IMG/VR virus record: IMGVR_UViG_3300031576_000555
Location: 1 to 48,004 of that record
Origin: a virus
DNA length: 48,004 nucleotides
Reading direction: 5' to 3' (one strand)
The stretch's first letter is position 1, and every line of letters starts with the position of its first letter. The position numbers and the translations under genes were made by a program. Shown here one piece after another: positions 2,137 through 48,004 of the stretch. The notes below the pieces were generated by a model. The model saw only the letters and a list, made by a program, of their open reading frames with translations. It was not told the DNA's origin and ran no database searches.

Positions 2137-3918
2137 ATGACGGCAGCAACAGAGGAAACGGAGTTGCTCTGTCTTGTTGCTCCGTCGTCCCCTCCGTCGT
2201 TCGTCCTCGAGGGGGCCCTGCTCGACGTGGCTCGTGAGGGCTGCACCCGCCACTTTTGGCCGTTCTTCAGGCATGGGTTCGGTGCGGCGGAATACTGCCG
2301 GCGCTCGCCGAAAGATGATTGGGTCGACGAGACCATCCATCGGGCGTTCTGCAACGAGTTCGAGCGTCACGTCAGGTGGTGGATGGACCGGCGCGAGCAC
2401 GACAACCACCGCTACATCATCCTCAACGTGTGGCCGCGCAAGATGGGCAAGTCGACGACGATCACCGAAGCCGGCAGCCTATGGTGTTCGGTCATAGACC
2501 CCAACCTCTGCATCGGAATCGGTTCCTACAACGACGAAAAAGCCCAGGATTTCCTGAGCGTGCCCAAGACGATCATGGAAGGACGCGCCTCCAACGGCCT
2601 ATTCAAAGAGTTGTACGGCACGTGGACGACCGACAAGTGGAACGAGTCCGAACTCGTCCATAGTTGGCGCACGATGCCCGAGATACGCGACCCCTCGTTC
2701 GAGTGTTGCAGCGTGAAGGCAGGAAGCACAGGATCAGCTTATGACATCTACTTCCTCGACGACCCGATCCCCGACCGCAGCTCCAAGGACGTGTCGACCC
2801 AGCTCCAGACCGATGTCCAACAGGCGGTGTCACACGTCCGCAAAATGTGGCCGGTGATGAAGAAGAACGCCCTTTTCGTAATCAACTTGACTCGCAAGGC
2901 CGACAACGATGTCGCAGCCTACGCGATGAAGAAGTTCCGGGTGCGGGAGTTCGCCGACACCGGGTGCAAACCGAGGGAATTCGAGTACAAACTCGACCCC
3001 GAGAAGGGCCGAGTGTTCGTCAATTTCCTGTCAGGAAGGGATTCGAAAGGGGTGCCCACGTGTTCCAAGGTGTGGTCCGACGATGAGATGAAGGACTTCG
3101 AGTCGCGCGACCCAGCCAACTACGCCTCCGAGGTGCAAAACATGCCTGCCGAGGGCAGCCACGTCAGTCTCAAAGAGGCGGACATCAAATACGTCAAGCG
3201 TAAGGACGTGCCCCCGAACCTGCGCTACGTGTTGCTCGGTGACACGGCGTTCAAAGAGGACAACGTCGGTGAGGGCAACGAGAACGCGATCGTCCAAGCG
3301 GGCCTCAGCAAAGATGGTCTCGGTGACGTTTACTACTTCTGGGCCCGCCACAGCAACCTATGGAGCAGCAAGGACTACTACGCCCAGTTGGTGATTGCAG
3401 CCCAGGAGTTATTGCAGCGCCGATTGTCTGTGTGGTGCATCACTGACGAGAAGGAACGGGGCGGCAAAGCGGGCCTATTCTCGGAGGCGTACGTCAACAA
3501 TTTCAGAGCGGCAGGGCTCGTGGCGCCACGCCTGATCCAGTTCTCGAGGGCGGGCAAGTCCAAACCGGCGCGCATCAACGCGGCGAAAGATTATTGGATG
3601 CGTGGCAAGGTGTATCTCGTCGAAGGTGGCGAGGGCCTGGACGTTCTGGAACATCAGATGTTGCGCCTCGGTTACACCGCACTCGACGACGTGGCCGATG
3701 CGGCCGCCGACGCGTTCCACCCCGACGTGTACTTCGGCGAGCGAATCGGAGTCAACCTCGAGAAGGGGGGGCCGGCGCGGAGGCCATTTGAAACAACCCC
3801 GATCCATATGATGAGGCCCGAGGAAAAAGCTCAATGGCAGCGCAACAGAATCACCGAGCGCGAACGGGACGCCCGGCGCGTAGTCAACTTACCGTGGTGG
3901 AGGCGCCCAGTCGAATGA
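2137..3918 (+). CDS. terL: Terminase large subunit (packaging ATPase/nuclease)
   Basis: A 593-residue protein with GAAGGAGGG before ATG. The ATPase half has a Walker A-like loop WPRKMGKST (about residues 99-107) and a Walker B strand YDIYFLDDP (about 202-210). The C-terminal half has the RNase H-type nuclease pattern: VLLGDTAFKED (Asp near 369), CITDEKERGG, and DAAADAFHPD near the end. Length is normal for this family. The enzyme translocates DNA into the procapsid through the portal and cuts it to unit length, consistent with the terminal repeat seen here. Its last codons overlap the start of the next gene (ATGA). The candidate small subunit is not adjacent but at 40978. Confidence 0.92.
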   Translation: MTAATEETELLCLVAPSSPPSFVLEGALLDVAREGCTRHFWPFFRHGFGAAEYCRRSPKDDWVDETIHRAFCNEFERHVRWWMDRREHDNHRYIILNVWPRKMGKSTTITEAGSLWCSVIDPNLCIGIGSYNDEKAQDFLSVPKTIMEGRASNGLFKELYGTWTTDKWNESELVHSWRTMPEIRDPSFECCSVKAGSTGSAYDIYFLDDPIPDRSSKDVSTQLQTDVQQAVSHVRKMWPVMKKNALFVINLTRKADNDVAAYAMKKFRVREFADTGCKPREFEYKLDPEKGRVFVNFLSGRDSKGVPTCSKVWSDDEMKDFESRDPANYASEVQNMPAEGSHVSLKEADIKYVKRKDVPPNLRYVLLGDTAFKEDNVGEGNENAIVQAGLSKDGLGDVYYFWARHSNLWSSKDYYAQLVIAAQELLQRRLSVWCITDEKERGGKAGLFSEAYVNNFRAAGLVAPRLIQFSRAGKSKPARINAAKDYWMRGKVYLVEGGEGLDVLEHQMLRLGYTALDDVADAAADAFHPDVYFGERIGVNLEKGGPARRPFETTPIHMMRPEEKAQWQRNRITERERDARRVVNLPWWRRPVE

Positions 3919-26726: not shown

Positions 26727-26854
26727 TGCACACACTCCTCGCGGGTTTTGTGCCGGGTCCCTGTCGCCACTAGGCCGCAGCAGCAGAGCCAGGCATCGTC
26801 CTCGTCAAAATACCACGAAGGGGGTCGTGGCCCCTCATCTCGTCCGGTAGCCAT
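26600..26854 (-). CDS. Small Trp/Cys-containing protein overlapping polymerase
   Basis: An 84-residue protein from ATG with AAAGGA 6 bases upstream, starting inside the polymerase gene (85-base overlap) and ending inside the next gene (127-base overlap). The sequence looks like a real protein: PPSWYFDEDDAWLCCCGLVA, REECVQWLRIERAKLESLVEW, then a helical end. The Cys cluster might bind metal. The two overlaps mean that three frames are used within about 260 bases. Family unknown. Confidence 0.5.
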   Translation of the reverse strand: MATGRDEGPRPPSWYFDEDDAWLCCCGLVATGTRHKTREECVQWLRIERAKLESLVEWMNLHEEKIRATVARAMNLQLQFPTSP

Positions 26855-29439
26855 ATTGCGTCCTTTCGGAGCCTCCATCGGGAACCGATCTTGATCTGGA
26901 CCGGGCATCGGAACCCCGGTGCTACTTGGGGGAATTCCTGTTCCATGATCTCTCTCATCCGCCAGGCCATCAAGGAAGCATTCTGCTCTGGCACTTCGAC
27001 AACGTCCTCGTCGTGCATCGGGATCACGAGGTGACCACCGAGTTCGACAGCGGCGGCCTCTATCTGTGGTGCCACGTCCCACTGCATGTCGGCGCCGCTG
27101 CCTTGGATTGGCGTATTGATGATCTCGTTGCGGTTGCCCTTCACGTCGCCAAACCATCTCTTCCTTCCCCAGCCGTTGACGATGTACCCGTGTTTGAGCA
27201 CGTATCTTATGCACTCGCGTTGATAGGCAGTGACGCCGGGGTACAGCTTCTCGAACCCTTCGATCATGGCTTTGACTTCGTCAGCCTTGACGTGGATGAA
27301 CCCAGCGTCGTGGAACGCCTTGTGGATCGTTTTCCACCCGCCACCGAAGATCCAGCCGTAGAAACAGTTCTTGGCTCGAGTGCGGTCGATGCCCAGCTTG
27401 GTGGCGTTGATCGTGTGGATGGAGTAGAGGGGATCGCCGGGGTGGTCGTCTTGTTGCCTGATCTGTTCCATCAGCGTTGGGTCGCCACTCTTGAACGCCA
27501 TGATGCGCAGCTCTTGGCTGTCGTAGTCGGCCATCACGAACAGGAACCCTGGACGTGGAACCACGATCACTCTCAGTGGCTTCGGCATCTGTTGGATAGG
27601 AGGAGTCTTTGTTGGACGGTGGCCCTTTGCGACGATGCGCCCCGTCGCTGCTGAGACTTGAAATTTCGCGCTGCCTTCGGAGTCGTCTTTTGATCCGGGT
27701 GCGTAGGTGGGGTAGATGTGGTCGCCGCACGAGAGATAGGTGGCGAGGTACTTGTTGCGGTGCTTGGTGTGGAGGAGGGCCATGAGAGCTGAGATACGAT
27801 CATCCGAAGTAAGCAAGCTGTCCAGCTTCGGGGCACCGTTGGCTCTCTTCGATTCCCCGTGCCTGACCAGGGCAATTAGATTCTGGATCGCCTCCTTCTC
27901 AGTAGTGATCTTGAGGATCTTCTGGCCCCCCTCCTTGACCTCTTTGTATTGCGTCGGGAGACCCCACTCTTCGTACAGCAGCTTCTTGAGTTGGGCTGGA
28001 GAGCGGGGGTTGCACCCTCCAGCGCTGGTCCAGCGGGCTTCTGCCCGGTCGGCCCACTTGCGATAGATGGCTTGGAGGCGGTCTCTGACCGTGGCGTCTA
28101 TCTTCAGTCCGCGCATGTGAATGTCAATGAGAAGGGGGAGCACTCGGCGTTCTCGCTCCCACACTTCCCACTGACCTGTCGCGATGATCTCGCGCCGAAG
28201 CACATCCCATAGTGGGAATAGGTTCGAGGCGTCCTGGCGGTTATAGGTCTCTTGGGCCTTCTCGTTGACTAGGACGCGGGCTTCGTGTTTGGGGACGAAG
28301 CACCGTTTACACCAACGGGCTTTCTCTTCGCGGGTCCATTCGTGGACGAGTTTGTTGCACTTGTCACAGGGTTGGCCCTTTTTCGTCTTGCCCTTCGTCC
28401 ACTTGGGTTCGCGTGGGGCTGACCCCGGGTTGCCCTCGTGCTTCCATCGGTGCCCATCGCAGAAGTGGCCGAATACTTGGTTGAGACTGTAGCCGGGGGC
28501 GTCTGGGTCAGCGATGGCTGCGCCCCACATGGGGTCGGTGATTGTGGTGGCGTCGATGGTGAAGCCGGCCTTGCGCAATAAGGGTAGGTCGTAGTTGGCG
28601 TTGAACACGAGGACCTCGGGCCGGTCGAGCGCCATCTGTGAGAGATGGGCGATGCGTCCGCCCATTCGCTCGGAGATCGCTTCGACGCCGCCTTGGGCGT
28701 TACGCCATGCGATTCCGATCCGTTCGATGGGGCCTCGTGGGTTCTCGAGGTCGATAGAGGCGGCGGGCGAGAGTGACAAACTTCCCGGGTCAGAGTTTTG
28801 TCGTGGTGGTCTGACTATACTCAGCTCGTCACGGCTCGCCCGTGCCGCCCGTCCGACTGCCCGACGAAACCAAGGGAACTTCTTGTTGCCTGTGCGCATG
28901 ATGAAGGCCGGATGATACGTGGTCAGAATCCATTCTACCGAGGAGGGGAGGTTCCCTCGGTGGCTACGCTCGACTTCATCCGGCCTGATCAAGTAGCCGT
29001 CCCAGTGGGAGACGGACATCTTTTTACCAGAGAATCCAGTAATTGCTCGAAGGGGCTCGTTGCCGAATAGGAGCAGGGTCTTCACATTGGTGAGCGAGGC
29101 GAGGTCCTTGTGTAAACGGGCTCGGCATGCGGTGAGCTGCTCGGGGGTGGGTTCATCTCCTCCCCCCATCGGGTAACAATTGATGCAATTGACTTTGAAA
29201 CAGTCACTTAGGTTGACACCGAAGGCTCCGAGGGCGGCTCTCGTGAGTGCGCCTGATCCCCCCACAAATGGTTGTGGCCCGAGTCCCTCCTCGTCGATGA
29301 GTTCGCGGAACCCCGGTCCGATGCCGACGATGGCGAGTGTGGCGTCTATTGGTCCGGCTGTGCCACACCACTTGCCACTCGGATCATCGAAGCTGGTGCC
29401 TCGCTCTTCGTTGCGTCTGGGGCACGTTGCACACCGCAC
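26770..29439 (-). CDS. Fused uracil-DNA glycosylase / 3'-5' exonuclease / family A DNA polymerase
   Basis: 889 residues from GTG 29439; an in-frame TTG at 29523 lies inside a hairpin. Residues 1-200 form a UDG domain with Cys pairs (CATC at 3-6, Cys25, Cys85, Cys88, Cys105: possible iron-sulphur cluster), GIGPGFRE (39-46), PFVGGSGAL and YHPAFI (175-180). The exonuclease domain has DLE (230-232), FNANYDLPLL (279-288) and YNRQDA (399-404), with an inserted zinc knuckle (CDKC 358-361, CKRC 377-380). The polymerase has motif A DYDSQELR (from about 638), motif B RTRAKNCFYG (686-695) and motif C MHDED (808-812). SPO1-type polymerases also carry a UDG-like domain. The fusion may keep uracil out of, or tolerate it in, the phage DNA. 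Confidence 0.9.
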   Translation of the reverse strand: MRCATCPRRNEERGTSFDDPSGKWCGTAGPIDATLAIVGIGPGFRELIDEEGLGPQPFVGGSGALTRAALGAFGVNLSDCFKVNCINCYPMGGGDEPTPEQLTACRARLHKDLASLTNVKTLLLFGNEPLRAITGFSGKKMSVSHWDGYLIRPDEVERSHRGNLPSSVEWILTTYHPAFIMRTGNKKFPWFRRAVGRAARASRDELSIVRPPRQNSDPGSLSLSPAASIDLENPRGPIERIGIAWRNAQGGVEAISERMGGRIAHLSQMALDRPEVLVFNANYDLPLLRKAGFTIDATTITDPMWGAAIADPDAPGYSLNQVFGHFCDGHRWKHEGNPGSAPREPKWTKGKTKKGQPCDKCNKLVHEWTREEKARWCKRCFVPKHEARVLVNEKAQETYNRQDASNLFPLWDVLRREIIATGQWEVWERERRVLPLLIDIHMRGLKIDATVRDRLQAIYRKWADRAEARWTSAGGCNPRSPAQLKKLLYEEWGLPTQYKEVKEGGQKILKITTEKEAIQNLIALVRHGESKRANGAPKLDSLLTSDDRISALMALLHTKHRNKYLATYLSCGDHIYPTYAPGSKDDSEGSAKFQVSAATGRIVAKGHRPTKTPPIQQMPKPLRVIVVPRPGFLFVMADYDSQELRIMAFKSGDPTLMEQIRQQDDHPGDPLYSIHTINATKLGIDRTRAKNCFYGWIFGGGWKTIHKAFHDAGFIHVKADEVKAMIEGFEKLYPGVTAYQRECIRYVLKHGYIVNGWGRKRWFGDVKGNRNEIINTPIQGSGADMQWDVAPQIEAAAVELGGHLVIPMHDEDVVEVPEQNASLMAWRMREIMEQEFPQVAPGFRCPVQIKIGSRWRLRKDAIWLPDEMRGHDPLRGILTRTMPGSAAAA

Positions 29440-29510
29440 GCTCGTCCGCCCTTCCAGTTGCGCACCCGCGTTCGAAGAAGTCGATTTAGCTAGAATACTC
29501 CGATGAGTGA

Positions 29511-29542
29511 TCCACCGCAACAACTTTCACTGTTGCGGTGGA
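29511..29542. terminator. Inverted repeat upstream of the polymerase
   Basis: CCACCGCAAC (29512-29521) pairs perfectly with GTTGCGGTGG (29532-29541). A flanking T-A pair and an inner A-T pair give a 12 bp stem with an 8-base loop. On the leftward strand it follows the stop of the 658-residue exported protein and precedes the polymerase start. Neither side has a clean U-run, so it may be a partial terminator, an mRNA-stabilising hairpin or an operator. Confidence 0.6.
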
Positions 29543-34688: not shown

Positions 34689-34975
34689 CCCAGCTCCCTA
34701 TACCAAAGCGTCCGTGGCACCGGCTTGAGGCCGACCTGGCGCAGACCTTTCTTGCACCACCCAACATTGGAGCTACTGCTCAGCAGCACATGAGGATTAA
34801 CTGGGTGTTCATACAGGATGATTGACTGCCACCTGGCCTCCGGCTCCGTCGAGACTTCGATCTTGCCTGCTCTGTTTTTCAGACCGAGCCGCCATGCGAG
34901 CCAGACGGCAACGCGAAGTCGTTTGTGCCCCTTCGGCCACGCCCCCGTCTCGTCGTAGTAGTAGACCCTTCGCAT
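34685..34975 (-). CDS. 96-residue hypothetical protein
   Basis: ATG behind GGAG, overlapping the MazG-like stop (TAATG), with its own stop overlapping the next ATG. The protein is basic, with Trp/Tyr-rich strands (MRRVYYYDETGAWPKGHKRL, AVWLAWRLGLKN) and NVGWCKKGLRQVGLKPVPRT near the end. No family recognised. It sits between the MazG-like gene and the membrane peptide. Confidence 0.58.
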   Translation of the reverse strand: MRRVYYYDETGAWPKGHKRLRVAVWLAWRLGLKNRAGKIEVSTEPEARWQSIILYEHPVNPHVLLSSSSNVGWCKKGLRQVGLKPVPRTLWYRELG

Positions 34976-35226
34976 TAGCCCGGCTCCTTGTCGTCTCTCC
35001 GCCGGATAGCCTCAGCCCAAGCGGCGGCGACGGCGGCAACTTGAATCACTTCGTCGTAAACGAGTTGTTCGGGCATATTCTCCAAGCTCGCCTTACACGC
35101 CTCGCCGAACTCCTCGCCCAATATGAGCGCCCACTTGGCGTCGTCGTGATCCTGTCGCCCCCATTTGCAATCTTGGGAGGCGCGTTCCATGCCGATGTCT
35201 GCCAGTACGCTCATTTTGTCAGTCAT
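34975..35226 (-). CDS. MazG-like/NTP-pyrophosphohydrolase-type small protein
   Basis: An 83-residue protein; ATG 35226 lies behind GAAGGAG and overlaps the upstream stop (ATGA). The segment ERASQDCKWGRQDHDDAKW, then LILGEEFGEACKASLE and EVIQVAAVAAAWAEAI, has the all-alpha EE-x-x-E signature of MazG-like phage proteins (EEFGE, then E of the second helix). Relatives hydrolyse non-canonical or canonical NTPs. As sequenced, this frame is open upstream through 35703 because of a 14-G tract. I treat that long read-through as artefactual or regulatory rather than as one protein. Confidence 0.68.
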   Translation of the reverse strand: MTDKMSVLADIGMERASQDCKWGRQDHDDAKWALILGEEFGEACKASLENMPEQLVYDEVIQVAAVAAAWAEAIRRRDDKEPG

Positions 35227-35456
35227 CCCGGCTCCTTCTCGCTCGCGTTGTCTCTCCACGACGACTTCCCGGTCCCGTTGCAGAACGGACACGGAAACGT
35301 CGGATTCTGGTCGAGCCAATTCGCCCCGGCCGCTCTCGCGCACAGCCGACAGAGCATGTTCCCGTCCACCCAGTAGGTCGGATTCGACGGCACTCCACAG
35401 CCCGCGCACCGCATGCAAAGCGTGGCGTCGCTTGGGTTGCTCGTTCCAACGGTCAT
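35223..35456 (-). CDS. Small zinc-ribbon protein
   Basis: A 77-residue protein. ATG 35456 sits 5 bases after the G tract, which may itself serve as ribosome site (GGGGAAAGGC). Cysteine pairs CMRCAGC (about 14-20), CRLC (about 36-39) and CPFC (about 55-58) give a double zinc ribbon. The end (SEKEPG) overlaps the MazG-like start. Its frame equals that of the upstream gene if the G tract has 13 or 16 Gs, which would fuse the two. Confidence 0.62.
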   Translation of the reverse strand: MTVGTSNPSDATLCMRCAGCGVPSNPTYWVDGNMLCRLCARAAGANWLDQNPTFPCPFCNGTGKSSWRDNASEKEPG

Positions 35457-35703
35457 GCCTTTCCCCCCCCCCCCCCAGAAACTCCGCCGTGTCTTTGCGC
35501 AGGTCGTCGAGGCCGCAGGTGCACTGCGTGGAACCATCGCTCTCAGCCGTCGTCAGACAACTCCACTCGTGCTCTATATCCCACTCATCGAGCCGCCTGA
35601 GCAGCGCGATTGCCTTTTCCCCGATCTCACGTGTCGCCACTGGCTCTAGGTCGCCCACCATGTCCTTTGCGACCGCGCGTACCAGCTTCTCCTCAGCCGT
35701 CAT
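35453..35703 (-). CDS. Small protein ending at a 14-G tract
   Basis: ATG 35703 lies behind GAGGAG. About 77 residues are clear: a helical N-terminal part (EEKLVRAVAKDMVGDLEP, REIGEKAIALLRRLDEWD) and a HEWSC...CTCGLDDL segment with possible zinc ligands, then DTAEFL and the glycine run. With 12 or 15 Gs the frame stops at 35453, overlapping the next ATG as do its neighbours. With the 14 present, it reads through to 34975. With 13 or 16 it fuses to the zinc-ribbon gene. I give the end for the coupled version. Confidence 0.5.
35463..35476. repeat. 14-base C/G homopolymer
   Basis: Fourteen consecutive C on this strand (G on the coding strand) at the junction of two coupled genes. It is the longest homopolymer I noticed in the window. 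Its length modulo three decides which downstream frame the upstream gene enters. Tracts like this are classical slippage sites, and also classical sites of sequencing error. Confidence 0.9.
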
Positions 35704-47831: not shown

Positions 47832-48004
47832 ATTTTGGAGACAAGCTAGGATAAGGTTCGGTGCGCCCTTGCGCGCGGCCCCCCCCCTTCGGGGCATCGT
47901 GGTGGCAATAGGGGCGCGGATGTGCAGTAGGCCAATCTCGTGTGCATCGAGGCTGGCGGTGGCACCTGAACGGATGCACCCCTAGACATGCGCGCACCCC
48001 CGGG
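47832..48004. repeat. Right copy of the direct terminal repeat
   Basis: These 173 bases match 1-172 except for one extra C in the run that starts at 47879. If the genome is circularised through this repeat, the divergent control region between the SprT-like gene and the first rightward gene measures roughly 560 bases. It is non-coding on both strands as far as I can see. Confidence 0.85.

Follow-up and report, generated by a model that had tools for sequence, protein, structure and literature searches.

A poly-G tract at a gene junction of a viral genome: reading frames, predicted Shine-Dalgarno pairing and candidate explanations

Slipped-strand poly-G and poly-C tracts are described from Neisseria, Campylobacter and Bordetella, and the run that we analyze here is likewise a coding G run far above chance in length, in which a single base is enough to shift the frame. 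Among phages, the methyltransferase of Campylobacter phage CPt10 has a poly-A frameshift near the distal end of the gene, for which slippage has been proposed (PMC2853527); there, as here, a homopolymer disrupts the frame of a phage gene close to its distal end.

The tract and the genes around it

The window (i.e., the whole virus record, 48,004 bases at 60% G+C) contains a run of exactly 14 Gs on the minus strand, which is 14 Cs on the plus strand; its position and length had been given in a preliminary description, which placed it between coupled genes, and were verified in the sequence (Table 1). Of the other homopolymers, the C8 and C9 of the terminal overlap are the longest, followed by a single G7. 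For each base type, Markov models of order 1 to 5 give between about 0.00002 and 0.0066 expected runs of at least 14 per window. With no more than about 0.007 such runs expected per window, the tract is too long to be attributed to chance; and a homopolymer that exceeds chance expectation, as this one does, is a criterion by which contingency loci are recognized.

The ends of the window overlap by 172/173 bp (positions 1-172 and 47832-48004), with zero mismatches and one single-base gap; the C-run difference that had been noticed between the terminal repeats is this gap, C8 on one side and C9 on the other. Since the overlap differs in nothing else, the genome in this record is probably complete, either circular or terminally redundant, without having been recognised as such.

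Table 1. Features of the locus in window coordinates
Feature	Coordinates	Strand	Description
Gene 1 up to the tract	35477..35703	-	opens with the ATG at 35703 and runs for 75 full codons (ending ...CTCGLDDLRKDTAEF) to the tract
G14 tract	35463..35476	-	3' end of gene 1 and predicted Shine-Dalgarno position of the next gene
Small Cys-rich (zinc-ribbon-like) gene	35223..35456	-	77 aa; own ATG at 35456
MazG-like gene	34975..35226	-	83 aa; own ATG at 35226, overlapping the end of the Cys-rich gene as ATGA
242-aa ORF at 14 Gs (probably not a real product)	34975..35703	-	gene 1, the Cys-rich gene crossed in another frame over about 78 codons, and finally the MazG-like protein

Codon usage supports gene 1, up to the tract, as a gene: its frame scores +12, vs. 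-27 and -22 for the other two, and it is preceded by a strong Shine-Dalgarno sequence (AGGAGGAG, predicted pairing -12.3 kcal/mol). The protein had zero matches in Pfam, PHROG, NCBIfam and PADLOC and belongs to no known family, and its HEWSC...CTCG residues could form a His/Cys metal site. By the frame analysis and the separate downstream starts (see below), slippage would change no more than the C-terminal tail of this protein.

The Cys-rich gene has a weak match to phrog_12902 (E 4.5e-5), together with sub-threshold matches to the DnaJ CXXCXGXG motif and to anti-TRAP. Codon usage alone does not separate its frame from the read-through frame (0.1 vs. -0.2), and it is mainly the CxxC pattern that suggests this open reading frame to be a gene. 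Pairing of the tract with the anti-Shine-Dalgarno sequence is predicted at -10.9 kcal/mol for every length of at least 9 Gs, which is among the strongest values of the 14 starts examined, and the tract is thus predicted to serve as the Shine-Dalgarno sequence of the Cys-rich gene at any such length.

The MazG-like gene matches phrog_2831 (E 4.1e-20), a family of unknown function, and some of its relatives are annotated as MazG-like. It has zero match to any Pfam MazG family and by Pfam would not be called a MazG nucleotide pyrophosphohydrolase; the EExxE metal-binding motif is present as EEFGE, and is kept in the aligned relatives except one (L157). Its own Shine-Dalgarno sequence, AAGGAG, has a predicted pairing of -8.0 kcal/mol. 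In annotated phages, the homologues of this gene are separate genes; a few relatives appear joined to other small N-terminal domains, e.g., a helix-turn-helix (HTH) domain in L187 and a Cys-rich stretch in L207. The match region of L187 has an XRE-type HTH-like N-terminal stretch in frame with the MazG-like protein.

Frame outcomes and coupling at the junction

Rebuilding the locus in silico with 9 to 19 Gs gave three phases. With 12 or 15 Gs, gene 1 encodes 82 or 83 aa, ending in GGGGKA* or GGGGGKA*, and its stop lies in an ATGA overlap with the next start; with 13 or 16, it is fused in frame to the Cys-rich open reading frame (159 or 160 aa); and with the 14 recorded, at which the ATGA overlap is absent, a 242-aa open reading frame reads into the MazG-like one. 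These are exactly the outcomes that the preliminary description had assigned to each length, i.e., a coupled stop, a fusion to the zinc-ribbon protein and read-through to the MazG-like gene. The notion that the recorded 14-G fusion is meaningful in itself was set aside, since its frame through the Cys-rich gene is not that gene's own.

Genes of this cluster commonly overlap by four bases or one base, with an embedded Shine-Dalgarno sequence (34444/34447, 34975 and 35223/35226), and at the last of these the stop of the Cys-rich gene overlaps the start of the MazG-like gene as ATGA. With 12 or 15 Gs the junction at the end of gene 1 has the geometry of these neighbours, and ATGA translational coupling would then be common to it and the Cys-rich/MazG-like junction; the difference is that, at gene 1, a homopolymer replaces the ordinary AGGAGG. 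Going by their own starts and good predicted Shine-Dalgarno pairing, both downstream genes should be made whatever the length of the tract, and tract length would therefore not turn them on and off.

Each ATGA overlap moves the frame by one, so that two such overlaps (as at 12 or 15 Gs) place three genes in three frames, and slippage upstream must therefore lead into one of these frames. One coincidence is all that three partners require beyond this, namely that the MazG-like frame stays open over the 231 nt of the Cys-rich gene, and stretches of that length without a stop make up 11% of those sampled from genes of this phage (111 of 974 overlapping samples). Because arithmetic and an 11% event suffice, the three-way outcome is not strong evidence of design.

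Relatives of the locus and G tracts in other viruses

Searches of viral contigs, phages and genomes with gene 1, the Cys-rich gene, the MazG-like gene, the terminase and a neighbouring gene found no syntenic relatives of the locus, and none of gene 1 or the Cys-rich gene individually; matches to plasmid DNA fell only in the methylase end of the query. The phage appears to belong to an isolated lineage, since its terminase (window 2137-3918) has zero tblastn match among 50,697 phage records and its DNA polymerase (window 26770-29523) has relatives that are only about 22% identical and too distant for synteny. For the MazG-like gene, 80 related viral loci were kept for comparison: none has, in the 600 nt upstream, a G run of at least 8, and neither gene 1 nor the Cys-rich gene is detectable beside the homologue in any of them. 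Because these loci are relatives of one gene and not of the whole locus, they speak neither for nor against conservation of the tract.

Across the viral collection, 105 stretches have 13 or more Gs within 8 nt of ATGA, vs. 55 for the scrambled word AGTA, against a background ratio of 1.7 between these words. The ATG that follows such a tract opens a reading frame of at least 60 aa in 43% of interior cases, vs. 31% for other ATGA (p ~0.01), and junctions flanked by two open reading frames are not enriched (17/64 vs. 25%). In general, G tracts are therefore at best weakly enriched where viral genes start, given 105:55 against 1.7, and they are not enriched at two-gene junctions.

Several related contigs share a tract at differing lengths. 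In the clearest pair, L015 and L072 (IMGVR_UViG_3300033743_000015 and 3300033827_000015), 5747 bp align with zero mismatch and one gap, which is the tract itself, 15 vs. 16 Gs. At 15 Gs, a Cys-rich protein of 58-60 aa ends with an ATGA stop, and at 16 it is fused to the next protein (the junction lies around 2337-2720 of L015). The likeness to the window is close, i.e., a small Cys-rich reading frame that ends in G15/G16, an ATGA overlap and a next frame that fuses onward, but the pair has zero detected homology to the genes of the window, and its third phase ends after about 20 codons without reaching a further gene. The two records differ in tract length by one, and the pair does not distinguish biology from error.

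G tracts are also kept between diverged relatives, in L007/L073 and in L011/L084. The first of these pairs has two tracts about 200 nt apart (L007, minus strand, ~110-325; L073, 1383-1600), of 13 vs. 15 and 10 vs. 11 Gs, in an apparent DNA methyltransferase gene (SCPPY and DPFAGG motifs); since the flanks are only 73-91% identical, the tracts have evidently been kept, and this gene is a better candidate for phase variation than the tract of the window. In another pair of related contigs (L076 and L107), with flanks 94-97% identical, a G43 and a G22 stand directly before ATGATGG.

Explanations for the tract and comparison with known systems

On balance, we favour an explanation in which a slippage-prone homopolymer has grown where gene 1 ends and would now act as the Shine-Dalgarno sequence of the gene that follows and is translationally coupled. 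As normal length, a multiple of three is most likely, i.e., 15 or 12 Gs, with gene 1 ending in ...GKA* within the ATGA overlap, and the 14 recorded would be a one-base variant, whether biological (slippage in the phage population) or technical (sequencing or assembly); the fusions would then be functionless. The tract, its frames, the ATGA geometry and the predicted pairing are read directly from the sequence. Counted in favour of this explanation are the 14-G reading frame crossing the Cys-rich gene out of frame (with an 11% chance of being open), the L015/L072 pair, the junction geometry at 12 or 15 Gs, the occurrence of the homologues as separate genes, the C8/C9 ends, the strong predicted pairing of the tract at every length of at least 9 Gs, and the spurious homopolymer indels that Illumina sequencing can introduce (PMC8808543). 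Against it, one would expect a G14 tract to be unstable and costly if nothing maintained it; the persistence of tracts across divergence in L007/L073 and L011/L084 makes selection for tracts in general possible; and the 14 Gs recorded are not divisible by three.

The locus might alternatively be a contingency (phase-variable) one, at which replication slippage would yield a mixture of phages in which gene 1 ends free in some and is joined to either the Cys-rich or the MazG-like protein in others. Such a locus would account for a tract so far beyond chance and for long open products in all three phases, and it finds a parallel in L015/L072, which have a like anatomy and pass from a coupled stop to a fusion in DNA that is otherwise identical, as well as in those MazG-like relatives that seem naturally joined to small domains. 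We nevertheless regard it as unlikely: the three-way outcome needs only arithmetic and one open frame, runs of 13 or more Gs before ATGA are not flanked by two open reading frames more often than other ATGA, the search for relatives of the locus and the upstream regions of the 80 MazG-like loci both came up empty, and nothing hints at an immune- or receptor-facing product. The preliminary description had proposed that slippage could make three products in the manner of phase variation; the frames and the one-base difference between L015 and L072 agree with this, but the switch of fusion partners goes beyond the evidence, and a functional fusion switch, though conceivable, is unsupported. Going further, one could conceive of the tract as a three-position selector, which leaves a small Cys-containing protein free, joins it to a zinc-ribbon protein or joins it to a MazG-like protein, and which arose independently in, e.g., L015/L072; this we consider very improbable.

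The recorded length may also be a simple error, as the preliminary description had likewise allowed. That the tract itself is a sequencing or assembly artefact, the true run having another and perhaps much shorter length, seems to us quite unlikely: the C8/C9 conflict in the terminal overlap, the position of some surveyed tracts at contig ends and the error-proneness of long homopolymers in short reads (spurious indels are possible in Illumina data, especially above 14 bp; PMC8808543) point that way, but the contig runs through the tract with coherent coding sequence on either side, a contig would be expected to break off at an end-of-read poly-G artefact, and similar tracts are conserved between diverged contigs. 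Slippage of the polymerase during transcription or of the ribosome, which other slippery runs are known to cause in bacteria and phages (PMC5009743), could give coupled and fused products in constant proportion from a genome of one length, and a tract at the 3' end of a reading frame with long alternative frames would suit it. However, the locus, whose RNA structure was examined by a simple fold, has zero Rfam match, conservation evidence is absent and the fused products are without known counterpart; we consider this mechanism very improbable.

If the length of the tract truly varies in the phage, the locus would be a rare case of homopolymer contingency in a phage, acting on fusions and not on on/off expression. 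If it does not, the locus carries a caution, in that the length of a homopolymer in an assembled viral contig can yield long false fusion reading frames, such as the 242-aa one. The locus departs from the tracts of Neisseria, Campylobacter and Bordetella: Here the run is 3'-terminal in the first gene, and each downstream gene retains a start of its own, so that an on/off effect is not expected, and the setting is a phage, with putative variation only and without a surface product. It differs as well from the CPt10 methyltransferase, in which the homopolymer is a poly-A run inside one gene, whereas the tract described here is a poly-G run at a coupled junction.
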